Below the pieces are notes generated by a model, which did no database searches, was not told where the DNA came from, and saw nothing but the letters and a program-made list of their open reading frames with translations. The position numbers were made by a program, and so were the translations under genes. A stretch of 48,480 bases of DNA, taken from positions 1-48,480 of the forward strand of contig JABHMO010000029.1 of NCBI GenBank assembly GCA_018693855.1. The letters run 5' to 3'. Below are positions 823-47,494 of the stretch, one piece after another. The stretch comes from Candidatus Falkowiibacteriota bacterium (GTDB lineage Bacteria; Patescibacteriota; Patescibacteriia; UBA11705; JABHMO01). Positions within the stretch are counted from its first letter, which is position 1. Each line of letters begins with the position of its first letter.

Positions 823-846
823 TTCTTTTAGTGTTTAAAAAGAAAA

Positions 847-1036
847 GAGGAGGTCCTGGTTAGGATTCTCCTCAATTCGTAACTTCCCGTGGCCGGCTGG
901 AGGGTGTTCCGTCCGAAAAAGCTGCATTGTGGGCGGTATTTCAACAACGGCTCCATCAGAATCGCAATTGCAAAACCCTGATCTCAAAGCCTCCCGCCTA
1001 TCCTATACACAAGCAATCTCCACGGATCATTGCTAC
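847..1036 (-). ncRNA. Stand-alone small RNA containing a 23S rRNA domain V / L1-stalk (about H75-H79) sequence
   Basis: Reverse complement has GTATAGGATAGGCGGGAGGCTTTGA and ATGGAGCCGTTGTTGAAATACCGCCC (E. coli 23S: GTGTAGGATAGGTGGGAGGCTTTGA / ATGGAGCCGACCTTGAAATACCACCC). Minus-strand promoter TTGACT (1066-1071), 17 nt, TAGAAT (1043-1048); 5' hairpin AGCAAT/ATTGCT; terminator GAGGAG..CTCCTC (847-873) followed by TTTTCTTTTT. Confidence 0.8.
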
Positions 1037-1116
1037 AAAAGTATTCTAATATATTAAAATAGATCAGTCAAGGCAAAAGTAGTTGACAAAAATCTATAAG
1101 GTTTTATAATGTATAT

Positions 1117-1262
1117 ATTACTCGTGGGGATTGGCTCCTACATGAAGAGTGATTAATTAAGGTGTCCCGCACTTGCGGGAAAACTAGATGGAACCGCGGG
1201 CCTCAATGTCTCGTTCTAGTGATCTAAATTAAATTTTTGGATTATTAGAATGAGGCTTTTTT
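1117..1262 (+). promoter_or_regulatory. Short T-box leader (glycyl, transcription-attenuation type) upstream of glyRS
   Basis: Promoter TTGACA (1083-1088), 16 nt, TATAAT (1105-1110); small hairpin 1120-1150 with GGC in loop; CCCGC/GCGGG hairpin (1166-1179); T-box AGATGGAACCGCGGG (1186-1200); antiterminator ACTAGA/TCTAGT; alternative 17-bp terminator GTCTCGTTCTAGTGATC (1208-1224) / GATTATTAGAATGAGGC (1240-1256) then a T-run. Confidence 0.85.
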
Positions 1263-15330: not shown

Positions 15331-16137
15331 TTACCGGCAGTTCGGATCCTGGCCGGAGTCAGGATCGTCGCACCAGATGGAACGCGGATTTTCGTCATCG
15401 AAGGGGTCATGAACGAACGAATCCGTGATTTCCGGGGCCAGGTTGAGCTTCTGGATGTCGTCGCAGGTTGCCGTGTCCCAATTGATGTCGGCGACTTTGA
15501 TGAGCGATCTCACGTTGGGTAATGCGATGGCGATGGGGGAGCATTCTTGTCCCATTACCGAGATCGTCACGGTTGCTGCTACTGGATAGTCGGTCCTCCA
15601 GTAGTTTTGGACTACGACACGCATGGTCTGCTGAGGTTCATCGATCACGATGGTCTCAGTTGCCATTCCGTTCACGGCGTCCATGTCCAGTCGCCCCCAG
15701 AAGGTCCTGTTGTGGTAAATCAAGATGGAATCGTCGACTTCCCGTTGCGAGTGGTCGTAACAGAACGTGCCTCCATTCCATGACAATGCATAGGAGAAAA
15801 CACAGTACTCATTGGACTCGCAATCTCGGTCTACTTCGCAGAGCCTGAGATCATCCCTTTCGTAGCCTGGGGTGCGACCGGGTTGCGAAATGTAGTACGT
15901 CCCACCGTTCCGATACCTCGCGGCGGTCAGATCGAGGTCTCCGTGATCAGCGTTCCACTCGAGCTTGATCACGATCGGAGGCCCCTCGTACTGCGGCTCA
16001 TTGTCCTCGAGCACGCAGTGAGTGCCTTCACACTCGAGTTCGCTGTTGAGGTTTTGGTCCTTCAGGTCGGTTTCGATGCAACCAACCAACAGAGTGGCCG
16101 CGGCGAGAAGGGACAGTAACAAGAAACGTTTGGTCAT
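15331..16137 (-). CDS. GC-rich secreted lipoprotein with YfaP/DUF2135-like 'DLDL' beta domain (probable horizontal acquisition)
   Basis: Start MTKRFLLLSLLAAATLLVGC (lipobox) after GAAAGGAGC SD; VIKLEWNADHGDLDLTAARY...LDMDAVNG...MRVVVQNYW; promoter TTGACT (16231-16236), 17 nt, TATAAT (16208-16213) on minus strand. Confidence 0.85.
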   Translation of the reverse strand: MTKRFLLLSLLAAATLLVGCIETDLKDQNLNSELECEGTHCVLEDNEPQYEGPPIVIKLEWNADHGDLDLTAARYRNGGTYYISQPGRTPGYERDDLRLCEVDRDCESNEYCVFSYALSWNGGTFCYDHSQREVDDSILIYHNRTFWGRLDMDAVNGMATETIVIDEPQQTMRVVVQNYWRTDYPVAATVTISVMGQECSPIAIALPNVRSLIKVADINWDTATCDDIQKLNLAPEITDSFVHDPFDDENPRSIWCDDPDSGQDPNCR

Positions 16138-16369
16138 GGAAAGCTCCTTTCGTGAGCTATGGGAAGAATGGGTAAAATGCCCGTAAAATGAACTCTTAAT
16201 GATTGTAATTATAACACGAAAGTAATAAAAAGTCAAGCGTTGCGTGCTTTTTTCTCTAAAATTACTCCAATTTACTCCGATTTACCTCGATTTACTTCGC
16301 CTCGCTTCGCTCCCACTTATTAACACCCCAATAACCTCAAAACCACCAAAAAATGGTATAATTAACCCA

Positions 16370-40901: not shown

Positions 40902-43469
40902 ATGCCCGAACTAACTCCCATGTTCAAACAGTTCTACGAAATAAAGGATCAGCATCCAAATGAGTTGCTGCTTTTTCGGATGGGTGATTTTTATGAGATG
41001 TTTGGTGAGGATGCTAAAAAAGCTTCGCGTATTCTAAATATTGTATTAACTGCTAGAAATAAAAATACTCCGAATGAAACACCAATGTGCGGTATTCCTC
41101 ATCATGCTCTTAATAATTATTTATCAAAACTGCTGAAAGCCAATCAACGTGTTGCGATCTGTGACCAAGTTAGCGACCCTACATTACCAGGAATTGTGAA
41201 ACGTGAAGTAACTCGAGTGATAACTCCTGGGACAACTCTTGATGATAATACTCTTGAGAATAAAAACAATAACTTTATCGTCAGTCTTTATTTACAAAAA
41301 AATATCTGGGGACTGGCTGTGGCTGATTTAACAACGGGAGAGTTTAAGGTCGCAGAGATTGCTGATTTTAATTTATTGAAAAATGAACTGTTTCGATTGG
41401 ATTACTCGGAAATAATTTTACCTGAATCTTTATCGAAAAATGAAGATCAAGAAGAGTTTTTAAACGAATTGCGTAATAAAAACATTTTTCAGCTTCCAAA
41501 CTTTGAAAAAGCTTATAAGGTTTTGACAAACCATTTCCAAACTCAGAATTTGAACAGTTTTGGTGTTGAAAAGATGAAAGTTGCAATTGAGGCTTCTGGT
41601 GCTTTGGTGCGATATTTGAAAGAAACGCAAAAAAGTGAGTTAAAACATATTAATAAAATAATGCGATATAGATTTGACGATTGCATGGCTCTAGATGAGG
41701 CAACTATTCGGAATTTAGAGCTGTTCTTCCTCAGTTCAACGGGCGAGTATGAAGGAAGTCTACTTAGCGTACTTGATCGAACAATTACAAATATGGGCGG
41801 GCGAATGTTGCGAAAATGGTTACTTGCTCCATTACTTAAATCAGAAAAAATTGCACAACGTCATGAAGTTGTTGATAAATTTCGGAATGATCATACATTA
41901 ATAAAAAATCTTGCTGAAAAGTTGAAACAGGTCGCTGATTTGGAACGGCTAGTTGCAAGAATCAGTTGTAATAGAACAAATGCTCGAGAACTAGTTGCTT
42001 TGCGATCAAGTTTGCAGTTAATTCCAGAGATTAAGGAGCTAGTTAGTAGTTGCGACGCTTTGATGATTAAAAACTTTGTTTCACAACTACCAGATCATAC
42101 AGAGTTGATTGATTATTTGAATACTGTTTTTGTTGACGATCCTCCAACTTTGATTACTGAGGGCGGTATGATTAATGATGGTTTTAATAAGAAACTTGAT
42201 GAACTGCGAGAGATTTCTAAGGGCGGTAAAAGTTGGCTGAACGAATTTCAAGCTAAGGAAGTGGAACGGACAGGAATTACTTCAATGAAAGTTAAATATA
42301 ACAGAGTTTTTGGTTATTATCTTGAAATTAGCAAATCAAATCTTGATCAAGTGCCAGAGGACTATATTAGAAAACAGACGCTTGTTAATGCAGAGCGATT
42401 CGTTACGCCAGAGCTAAAAGAGTATGAAGAAAAGATTCTAAATGCTGAAGACGAGATTCATAAAATTGAACATCAGATATTTTTAGAAGCTGTTGAGAAA
42501 GTTATGACCTTTTTTGAATCAATTGCGAAAACAGCTGATATTATTGCTCAGATTGATGTTTTGCTTTCATTCTCGATTATTGCTAATGAGAACAGCTACG
42601 TCATGCCTCAGATCGCTCAGGGTGGGGAAGTTGTGATTAAAGACGGTCGGCATCCAGTGATTGAAAAATTTCAAAAAGAGATGTATATCCCAAATGATTT
42701 GGAGTTGAATCATGATAAGCAGGAACTTCTACTTCTGACTGGTCCAAATATGAGTGGTAAGTCTAGTTTTCTGCGACAGACTGCTCTGATCTGTCTGATG
42801 TCTCAGATTGGTTCATTTGTACCTGCCAAGGCAGCTCAGATCTCTATTGTTGATCGGATTTTTACTAGAGTTGGCGCTTCTGATAATTTAGCACAAGGGA
42901 TCTCTACTTTTATGGCTGAGATGCAGGAAGCTGCTAATATTATTAATAATGCAACAAAAGATTCACTGATAATTCTAGATGAACTAGGTCGAGGTACTTC
43001 GACTTATGATGGAGTTAGTATTGCTTGGGCAATGATAGATTATATTCATAATAATGTCGGTGCCAAGACTTTATTCGCGACTCATTACCATGAACTCACT
43101 GATGTGATTGATAAACTCGATAGAGCTGATAACTACTGTGTCGCAGTTAGTGAGAATGAAGGCAAGGTCGTTTTTCTACACAAGATCGTCAAAGGTGCTA
43201 GTTCGCAAAGTTATGGAATTGAAGTTGCCAAATTAGCAGGATTGCCTGATGAATTAATCAACAAAGCATCTCAAATATTGCAAAACCTAGAATCAAAAAC
43301 AGCTTTAAATAACAATAAAAAAGAAGTCCAGCAAGGGACTTTGCCCCTTAATCTAACCCCCAAAGAAAAAGAAGTCACAGACAATCTGAAGAAAGTCGAC
43401 GTGAATAACTTAACTCCCATGGAAGCGCTTAAGAAGTTGTCTGATTTGACGGATGAGCTGAAAGGTTAA
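40902..43469 (+). CDS. mutS: DNA mismatch repair protein MutS
   Basis: TPMFKQFYEIKDQHPNELLLFRMGDFYEMFGEDA, TGPNMSGKSSFLRQTALI, DELGRGTSTYDGVSIAWA. Confidence 0.98.
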   Translation: MPELTPMFKQFYEIKDQHPNELLLFRMGDFYEMFGEDAKKASRILNIVLTARNKNTPNETPMCGIPHHALNNYLSKLLKANQRVAICDQVSDPTLPGIVKREVTRVITPGTTLDDNTLENKNNNFIVSLYLQKNIWGLAVADLTTGEFKVAEIADFNLLKNELFRLDYSEIILPESLSKNEDQEEFLNELRNKNIFQLPNFEKAYKVLTNHFQTQNLNSFGVEKMKVAIEASGALVRYLKETQKSELKHINKIMRYRFDDCMALDEATIRNLELFFLSSTGEYEGSLLSVLDRTITNMGGRMLRKWLLAPLLKSEKIAQRHEVVDKFRNDHTLIKNLAEKLKQVADLERLVARISCNRTNARELVALRSSLQLIPEIKELVSSCDALMIKNFVSQLPDHTELIDYLNTVFVDDPPTLITEGGMINDGFNKKLDELREISKGGKSWLNEFQAKEVERTGITSMKVKYNRVFGYYLEISKSNLDQVPEDYIRKQTLVNAERFVTPELKEYEEKILNAEDEIHKIEHQIFLEAVEKVMTFFESIAKTADIIAQIDVLLSFSIIANENSYVMPQIAQGGEVVIKDGRHPVIEKFQKEMYIPNDLELNHDKQELLLLTGPNMSGKSSFLRQTALICLMSQIGSFVPAKAAQISIVDRIFTRVGASDNLAQGISTFMAEMQEAANIINNATKDSLIILDELGRGTSTYDGVSIAWAMIDYIHNNVGAKTLFATHYHELTDVIDKLDRADNYCVAVSENEGKVVFLHKIVKGASSQSYGIEVAKLAGLPDELINKASQILQNLESKTALNNNKKEVQQGTLPLNLTPKEKEVTDNLKKVDVNNLTPMEALKKLSDLTDELKG

Positions 43470-43593
43470 GGTTTGTCGAGGTGGGGGGAGAATACTTGAT
43501 TTACTGATCAGTCGTTTTTGTCAAAAGTTAAGTGTTAAATGTCAAATGTTTTTTACTATTGACATAAAACAAACAATTAGCTAATATATCTTT

Positions 43594-44020
43594 ATCCGGA
43601 GGTGGCAACGACCTCCTTGCCTGGAAGTCCGAGAATATTGACGAAACTCCGGACTGGCAAAAAAATGTGCAGTTGTCGGACTGTGCGGGCTTGTTTCGGG
43701 AGGACCGAACGCGAGCTAAAAGTTGCGCTTCTCCTCGCGGGAGAGCATCAACGAGAGATGTGAACGGTGATTTAGTCGGAAGAGTCGTGACGTTCTAAGA
43801 AGCCCTTTGTGGTGGAGAGTGATCGAACTTTCGGGTCAACTTGATCATCTAGGAGAAGTGTATTCTTGGTTTTCGTAAACGCCACCAAGAATACGTCGGA
43901 AATCATGCTTGACGCCTGTATTGGTCCAAACGGCCATCTATACAGCTATTCGCACGATTTCCGACATTCCGACCGATTATCCAAGCTCGTCCTCTTCTTC
44001 GAGGGCGCGCTTTTCTTTTT
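43594..44020 (+). ncRNA. Large structured RNA 1 of unknown family
   Basis: Promoter TTGACA (43559-43564), 17 nt, TAATAT (43582-43587); stems GGAGGT/ACCTCC, AGTCCG/CGGACT, GGGCTT/AAGCCC, 10-bp GTATTCTTGG/CCAAGAATAC, 10-bp GTCGGAAATC/GATTTCCGAC enclosing CTGTAT/ATACAG; terminator CGTCCTC/GAGGGCG then TTTTCTTTTT. Confidence 0.8.
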
Positions 44021-44109
44021 ATTTATTAATTGTGATTTTCAAGTCAAATGTCAAGTGTTAAATGTTTCTTATCCTTGACATAAAGTAAGTTCTGTACTAG
44101 AATGTGTCT

Positions 44110-44472
44110 ATGCGAGGGGGGGAGGTACCATTCCTCTTGAACTTACACCGGCTACGGTGTGCTAGGTTCGAAATGGCGAGTGGGGAGCCAAGACTCCATT
44201 TGCGCAGTCCTTCGGGGCCATCACATTTGTACTCTTCTTACTTGGGTCGTAGACCTGAGCCGTCAGAGGGATGGCGGGGCTTTTGCAACCCTTCCATTAA
44301 GAATGTATCTTCGAGATTTGCGGGCCAGCCCATATAGCTGGATCTCTCAAGACAAAGTCCGTTGATCCGATTATTTGGTGTCTATAGAACACTTAGATCA
44401 ACTTCCTCGGACCCTTCTTGGCCGCGATCATCATAGCTCGTCTCCGACTTTCGGAGGCGCGCTTTTCTTTTA
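44110..44472 (+). ncRNA. Large structured RNA 2, apparently related to RNA 1
   Basis: Promoter TTGACA (44075-44080), 17 nt, TAGAAT (44098-44103); stems ACACCG/CGGTGT, CCAGC/GCTGG in GAGA/TCTC, GTCCG/CGGAC enclosing TTGATC/GATCAA; terminator CGTCTCCGA/TCGGAGGCG then TTTTCTTTT. Confidence 0.78.
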
Positions 44473-44564
44473 AAAACTTTAATTGTTTGTACATGTTAGT
44501 ATTTATTCTTGCAATTGACGCAAATTTCCTCTATAATTTATATAATAAATAATCGAAATAAAAT

Positions 44565-46888: not shown

Positions 46889-47494
46889 ATGAGCGAACTA
46901 ACAAAAAGACAAAGTGAAATACTTCGATTTATTACGGGTTTTGTTAAAGATAATGATTATTCCCCTAGTTTCAGGGAAATTGCCGAAGGTGTAGGACTAT
47001 CATCTCCTGCAACAGTGCATCAACATGTACAAGCTCTTCGTGAAAAAGGATTTCTGAACGCTGACGGTGAAACACCTCGATGCCTAGAGATAACTAATAA
47101 GGTAATGAGTCTTTGTAAGGCAATTGAGTTGCCTTTGGCAGGTCTTATTACGGCTGGTCAACCAATTGAGGCTGTCATGCAAAATGAAACAATGGCTGTG
47201 CCTGCTGATTTAGTAACTGATGACAGTTCTTATGTTCTGAAAGTAAAAGGTGAGTCAATGATTGATGAAGGTATCTTTGATGGAGACTACGTGATCGTTG
47301 AACGAAATCATTTCCCACAAAATGGAGATGTAGTAGTTGCCCTTCTTAATAATGCCTATGCTACTTTGAAAAAATTCTATAAAGAAGCAACCAGAATTCG
47401 GCTTCAACCAGCTAACGCAACAATGAAACCAATCTACTGCAAAGACGTTGCCATCCAAGGCGTCGTCCGAGCCATCATCCGTAAGTTCGCGTAA
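46889..47494 (+). CDS. lexA: LexA repressor
   Basis: LTKRQSEILRFITGFVKDNDYSPSFREIAEGVGLSSPATVHQHVQALREKGFL; VKGESMIDEGIFDGDYVIVER; cleavage-like ITAGQP. Confidence 0.97.
   Translation: MSELTKRQSEILRFITGFVKDNDYSPSFREIAEGVGLSSPATVHQHVQALREKGFLNADGETPRCLEITNKVMSLCKAIELPLAGLITAGQPIEAVMQNETMAVPADLVTDDSSYVLKVKGESMIDEGIFDGDYVIVERNHFPQNGDVVVALLNNAYATLKKFYKEATRIRLQPANATMKPIYCKDVAIQGVVRAIIRKFA

Follow-up and report, generated by a model that had tools for sequence, protein, structure and literature searches.

A free-standing, strongly folded candidate RNA downstream of mutS in a Candidatus Falkowiibacteriota genome

Boundaries and neighbors of the unit

Near the 3′ end of a 48,480-nt stretch of DNA from a Candidatus Falkowiibacteriota bacterium (the whole stretch analyzed, hereafter the window; its genome is G000), a GC-rich segment follows mutS. 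Does this segment encode a structured RNA, and if so, of what kind? The original prediction described a GC-elevated stretch with a consensus promoter and terminator; its coordinates and both signals are real, and the GC content is 0.50 in 43594-44020 compared with 0.367 for the whole window. The upstream neighbor is mutS (40902-43469; Pfam MutS I-V). On the 3′ side lie a second unit (RNA2), a run of small unassigned genes, and then lexA (46889-47494). The main features of the first unit (RNA1) are as follows.

43520-43542 (+): AT-rich repeat GTCAAA(A/T)GT(T/C)AAGTGTTAAATGT, 5′ of the RNA1 promoter; a second copy (44043-44065) lies 5′ of the RNA2 promoter
43559-43587 (+): RNA1 promoter TTGACA-17-TAATAT, from a consensus scan and the sequence
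43590-44012 (+): RNA1, putative stand-alone structured non-coding unit of ~420 nt, with ends deduced from promoter and terminator
43988-44019 (+): intrinsic terminator of RNA1, a stem (43988-44007) plus a U tract, with a 22-mer common to RNA2

The RNA1 promoter is of the sigma-70 type and would initiate transcripts near 43592, with termination at the RNA1 terminator. The next gene after RNA2 has a promoter-like site of its own (44509-44537). Because RNA1, RNA2, and this gene each have a separate promoter or promoter-like site, a role of RNA1 as a leader or riboswitch is argued against.

The AT-rich repeat, which can also be written GTCAAATGTCAA(G/A)(T/G)GTTAAATGT, is found on contigs C10, C18, C24, C28, and C39 of G000, mostly in intergenic positions; further genomes in the class and the phylum have it too. 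Its occurrence at RNA1 and RNA2 is not specific, since it is dispersed across the genome.

Folding compared with chance

RNA1 folds better than composition-matched chance both as a whole (-157.1 kcal/mol; z = -3.83) and without its terminator (z = -3.81), with none of 100 shuffles being as stable in either case. The same was found for its 5′ half (z -3.1) and its 3′ core (z -4.25), for each of which 0 of 100 shuffles were as stable; strong structure extends along RNA1 outside the terminator. Two 400-nt segments of mutS, used as controls, gave z = +0.8 and -0.1, and the large RNAs of the same genome gave z = -2.85 (tmRNA) and z = -3.05 (RNase P RNA). RNA1 is at least as structured as these two RNAs. 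Perfect Watson-Crick helices are also in excess, with 2 of at least 10 bp (shuffle mean 0.05; 0 of 60 shuffles had as many) and 28 of at least 6 bp (shuffle mean 18; 1 of 60 had as many). The antisense strand folds well too (z = -3.2), and the strand of RNA1 was therefore assigned by its promoter and terminator rather than by folding.

Based on the minimum-energy fold and pair probabilities, RNA1 is predicted to form a row of 5′ hairpins followed by a 3′ multibranch domain that a long-range helix would close.

43598-43616 (+): hairpin GGAGGU/ACCUCC, pair probability 0.99
43617-43660 (+): hairpin UUGCC-AGUCCG/CGGACU-GGCAA, pair probability 0.95-0.97
43667-43686 (+): hairpin GUGCAGUU/GACUGUGC, pair probability 0.99
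43688-43717 (+): hairpin GGCUUGU-UUCGG/CCGAA-GCGAGCU, pair probability 0.95, in competition with GGGCTT/AAGCCC
43766-43981 (+): 3′ multibranch domain with long-range closing helix 43766-43780/43968-43981, pair probability 0.87-0.98
43860-43894 (+): 11-bp hairpin GUAUUCUUGGU/ACCAAGAAUAC, pair probability 0.99
43895-43965 (+): 10-bp helix GUCGGAAAUC/GAUUUCCGAC, pair probability 1.0, enclosing UGUAU/AUACA (0.98) and UGGUC/GGCCA (0.88)

Nearly all of the helices listed in the original prediction are in this fold, with mean pair probabilities of ~0.88-1.0, and a few need revision. GGGCTT (43687) and AAGCCC (43800) are a true sequence match, but the local pairing GGCUUGU/GCGAGCU (p 0.95) outcompetes it. 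Nor does this pair close the multibranch domain as had been proposed: the best closing helix joins 43766-43780 with 43968-43981, and its 3′ strand is as fully paired in only 8 of 200 shuffles of the 5′ part. The TGGTC/GGCCA helix is present but includes one G-U pair, and the GTATTCTTGG helix is present but has 11 bp instead of 10. Taken together with the terminator, the 43895-43965 region has a local z of -4.98.

In the first hairpin, ACCUCCUU (43611-43619), which pairs with GGAGGU, reproduces the anti-Shine-Dalgarno tail usually found on 16S rRNA. This identity is probably due to chance; for any one 8-mer, the probability over 427 nt is ~0.7%. Mimicry of rRNA by RNA1 or RNA2 was also considered and rejected, as comparisons with the rRNA loci of a genome of the same order (G006) or of E. 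coli genomes gave nothing beyond chance; the E. coli genomes, rRNA included, have no similarity to RNA1.

Coding potential

The short frames on RNA1 (53 aa at 43602 and 70 aa at 43866), which had been described as non-conserved-looking, matched nothing in Pfam, even at E 1, and neither has a Shine-Dalgarno site in a suitable position. If one of them were translated, RNA1 would be the mRNA of a small protein, as is often the case for the promoter-terminator units sampled in these genomes, which encode small proteins behind a clear Shine-Dalgarno sequence; a GGAGG is present at 43598. However, this GGAGG overlaps a GTG start and is sequestered in a hairpin (p 0.99), the Pfam search was negative, and codon-usage gene calling did not pick the frame. 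We consider translation of either frame highly improbable. RNA1 combines a stand-alone promoter and terminator with an absence of coding signals, which argues against an mRNA. With a leader or riboswitch also argued against, a trans-acting RNA remains.

Known families and homologue searches

A search with Rfam 15 at the gathering score returned 0 matches in the window. Relaxing cmscan to E up to 10 over 43450-44560 gave nothing credible, the only matches being two implausible ones to eukaryotic lncRNAs. The Rfam search that had been suggested for RNA1 therefore matched it to no known family and, together with structure above chance, upholds its description as a novel candidate structured RNA. 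Could it be a divergent housekeeping RNA, such as RNase P RNA, tmRNA, SRP RNA, or 6S RNA? RNA1 is near RNase P RNA and tmRNA in size, and those of its own genome resemble it in length and folding strength. However, both are located elsewhere, on other contigs: the only RF00010 match of the genome is at G000:C39:8053-8367 and a full-length RF00023 match is at G000:C10:25566-25958. RNA1 matches neither model, and the two lncRNA matches were all that the permissive cmscan returned. A housekeeping RNA is thus largely refuted and carries only a trace of our credence, in line with the earlier statement that signatures of these four RNAs are lacking.

The blastn comparison that had been suggested for RNA1 found no homologue of its body in 58 relatives or in genome sets from the order (11 genomes), the class (389), and the phylum (312); the matches of the region were confined to the AT-rich spacer with the dispersed repeat or to isolated short stretches. 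Phage and plasmid collections gave no match to RNA1 DNA, and there is no second copy of the RNA1 body in its own genome. A covariance model of the 3′ domain, run against the 11 genomes of the order, found only RNA1 itself and the 3′ end of RNA2; its third match, to the RNA1 minus strand, reflects a palindromic stem. A MutS-anchored contig scan returned distant bacteria only. A scan of viral contigs with the conserved 3′ linker was discarded, as its 8 matches were chance matches in unrelated sequence. Judged by these searches, the orphan status of RNA1 is real at this sampling, in which nearly every genus of the order is a single genome.

The tandem unit RNA2

Directly 3′ of RNA1, RNA2 has the following features.

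44075-44103 (+): RNA2 promoter TTGACA-17-TAGAAT, matching the consensus at 11 of 12 positions
44108-44463 (+): RNA2, tandem unit bounded by a promoter and a terminator of its own
44439-44471 (+): intrinsic terminator of RNA2, from a terminator scan, with the 22-mer common to RNA1

Homology between the two units is limited to the promoter region (including the upstream repeat) and the last ~95 nt, with a local alignment score of 54 compared with 23.9 (sd 3.5) in shuffles, none of 200 reaching it. The 5′ body of RNA2 has no similarity to RNA1. RNA2 folds at z -2.07 as a whole and at -0.9 without its terminator, the latter being indistinguishable from shuffles. A test for a 3′ architecture shared with RNA1 was not significant in RNA2: an RNA1-like closing helix can be drawn in RNA2, but also in 127 of 200 shuffles, and because shuffles do equally well this likeness was not counted as covariation. 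RNA2 is a partial paralogue of RNA1 in its gene ends only, which is no proof of conserved structure. It may represent a tandem partial duplicate that kept the same regulatory ends while its body was replaced or strongly diverged.

These patterns bear on two alternatives. The first is that RNA1 is a decaying or selfish intergenic element, or a mobile or duplicated remnant, with no selected RNA function. Tandem partial duplication with common flanks, the dispersed repeat adjoining both units, and the absence of above-chance structure in RNA2 apart from its terminator all agree with it. However, the RNA1 body is single-copy in the genome, the promoter and terminator are intact, and RNA1 is strongly folded along its whole length, and we regard such an element as unlikely. 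The second is an ordinary lineage-specific regulatory sRNA of the base-pairing or sponge type, in which the fold would be mainly protective and short single-stranded seeds functional. Fast sRNA turnover would fit both the lack of homologues beyond the genome and the divergent body and conserved ends of RNA2, but ~420 nt and folding stronger than that of the genome's tmRNA and RNase P RNA exceed the needs of a base-pairing sRNA. We hold this second alternative to be possible, though on balance doubtful.

A short non-coding unit on contig C12 of the same genome (L200:13793-13955, -) has a promoter and start (TAATATAGCTTTATCC) like those of RNA1, and its terminator ends in GCGCTTTTCTTTTT, as in RNA1 and RNA2. 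Its surroundings (330 nt) fold at z -6.8.

The position after mutS in related genomes

We identified mutS orthologues across the order and examined the DNA 3′ of each. In G003, a 441-nt non-coding unit (L056:4138-4578, +) with TTGACA-17-TATAAT and a strong terminator lies between mutS and mutL (z -6.67; -5.9 when trimmed of the terminator). In G006, which belongs to another family, a 406-nt unit (L059:918-1323, -) with TTGACA-17-TATATT and a terminator occupies the same position (z -4.2; -3.3 trimmed). The mutL label in both genomes was assigned by reading the beginning of the next frame rather than by a family search. These units resemble RNA1 in their slot directly after mutS, orientation, length (~400-440 nt), promoter and terminator, and strong fold. 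They differ in what follows, which is directly mutL in G003 and G006 but RNA2 and small genes in the window. Neither unit has an Rfam match or sequence similarity to RNA1, RNA2, or the other, and as queries over 389 class genomes they gave chance-level short matches only. In the remaining genomes of the order, mutS is followed by protein genes or the contig end.

With the same promoter-terminator criteria applied to ~286 kb from G000 and 395 kb from G006, we found no further such unit (more than 350 nt, with a strong fold and no evident ORF, tRNA, or rRNA) away from mutS; the promoter criterion of this survey missed genuine tmRNA and RNase P genes. If units number fewer than about one per 220 kb, the chance of two more cases among the roughly nine mutS flanks that could be read would be ~1 in 1000, an estimate that is post hoc and uses a crude gene caller. 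The broader claim of a general rarity of structured intergenic stretches in these genomes was abandoned: under looser criteria, ~20 of 54 long GC-rich intergenic stretches had z below about -3.4 on one strand, and rarity holds for the stricter promoter-terminator definition only.

The mutS slot is a lead rather than demonstrated orthology. A bolder interpretation is that RNA1, RNA2, and the RNAs of G003 and G006 are orthologues forming one hyper-diverging class of large folded RNAs that marks the mutS(-mutL) locus throughout the order, whose members are very small bacteria, and is tied to mismatch repair, acting together with it or being maintained by it; taken jointly, we judge these propositions to be a long shot.

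Other elements in the window and related genomes

Several other elements were observed. At 842-1056 (-) of the window, a stand-alone unit with a promoter-like site and a terminator contains a block resembling the L1 stalk of 23S rRNA (TGTGTATAGGATAGGCGGGAGGCTTTGAGA...GGAGCCGTTGTTGAAATACCGCCC), with 73% identity over 92 nt to E. coli 23S rRNA, a match obtained in thousands of genomes. This unit has no Rfam match and no similar copy in the order by blastn; it may act as a decoy RNA to which ribosomal protein L1 binds. At 1045-1221 (+), a divergent leader resembling a T-box scored 36.9 bits (E 1e-6), short of the gathering score of 93; it carries a conserved TGGNACCGCG element and precedes the gene at 1374 for a class II tRNA synthetase. 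The 301-aa frame at 15331-16236 (-) has a GC content of ~0.55 in a 0.37 genome and no Pfam match, and is possibly a recently acquired gene.

Outside the window, a predicted tRNA-like transcript on contig C48 of the same genome (L198:823-989, +) has an acceptor-like stem, a TTCAATT T-loop-like arm, and an enlarged middle; Rfam did not call it a tRNA. In G006, the RNase P RNA match (G006:C3:523584-524269; L042) spans 686 nt. As this is about twice the usual length, this RNA probably carries a large insertion.

Proposed role of RNA1

We somewhat favor RNA1 as a free-standing gene for a trans-acting structured RNA, in which the folded molecule would serve as a scaffold or part of an RNP and not as an mRNA, riboswitch, or leader. 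This explanation was given the most weight because strong structure is distributed along RNA1 beyond its terminator. The GC-rich body bracketed by a promoter and a terminator without a coding signal, folding at least equal to that of the genome's tmRNA and RNase P RNA with no Rfam match, and the equally long, strongly folded units in the slot after mutS in G003 and G006 also point to it. On the other side, the RNA1 body has no homologue in the genomes searched, RNA2 without its terminator folds no better than shuffles, and long structured intergenic stretches are common under looser criteria. We infer the transcription, stability, trans action, and partner of RNA1 from this evidence, and a fast-evolving trans-acting structured RNA is the most likely identity.

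If real, these RNAs would mean that genomes of ~1 Mb keep a long folded RNA without an Rfam counterpart, and that related genomes keep a different one in the slot beside mutS. This would suggest that some large RNAs evolve too fast for sequence-based discovery, yet can be found by position. Functions have been assigned to few large RNAs of bacteria, and a class tied to one position would open this question to testing.

Comparison with known systems

GOLLD and ROOL are located in phages or prophages, often near tRNA islands, and an RNA-only homo-oligomer is a membership trait of the ornate large RNAs GOLLD, ROOL, and OLE. The setting of RNA1 is different. There is no tRNA in the window, and the scanned flanking genes (mutS, lexA, tRNA synthetases, and other chromosomal genes) include no recognized prophage genes. 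RNA1 is also short of the ornate-class length of ~600 nt or more, with ~420 nt where ROOL env-120 has 659 nt and many GOLLDs exceed 800 nt (PMC12286853), and it matches no covariance model of GOLLD, ROOL, or OLE, either at the gathering score or at E up to 10. The likeness to GOLLD/ROOL drawn in the original prediction is thus one of general style, as RNA1 is too short, lies beside mutS, and matches neither family.

Candidate ncRNAs have been derived from GC-rich intergenic regions of AT-rich genomes, with covariation support in many genomes (PMC11109978). RNA1 differs from these candidates in that no homologous body was found and their covariation support is lacking, but it shares the signal used by that method, namely, a long intergenic stretch that is GC-rich within an AT-rich genome. 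RNA1 is a credible new orphan of a known kind rather than a demonstrated new RNA class. Like GOLLD, ROOL, and OLE (PMC12286853), it would be a stand-alone, elaborately folded bacterial RNA to which no function has been assigned.
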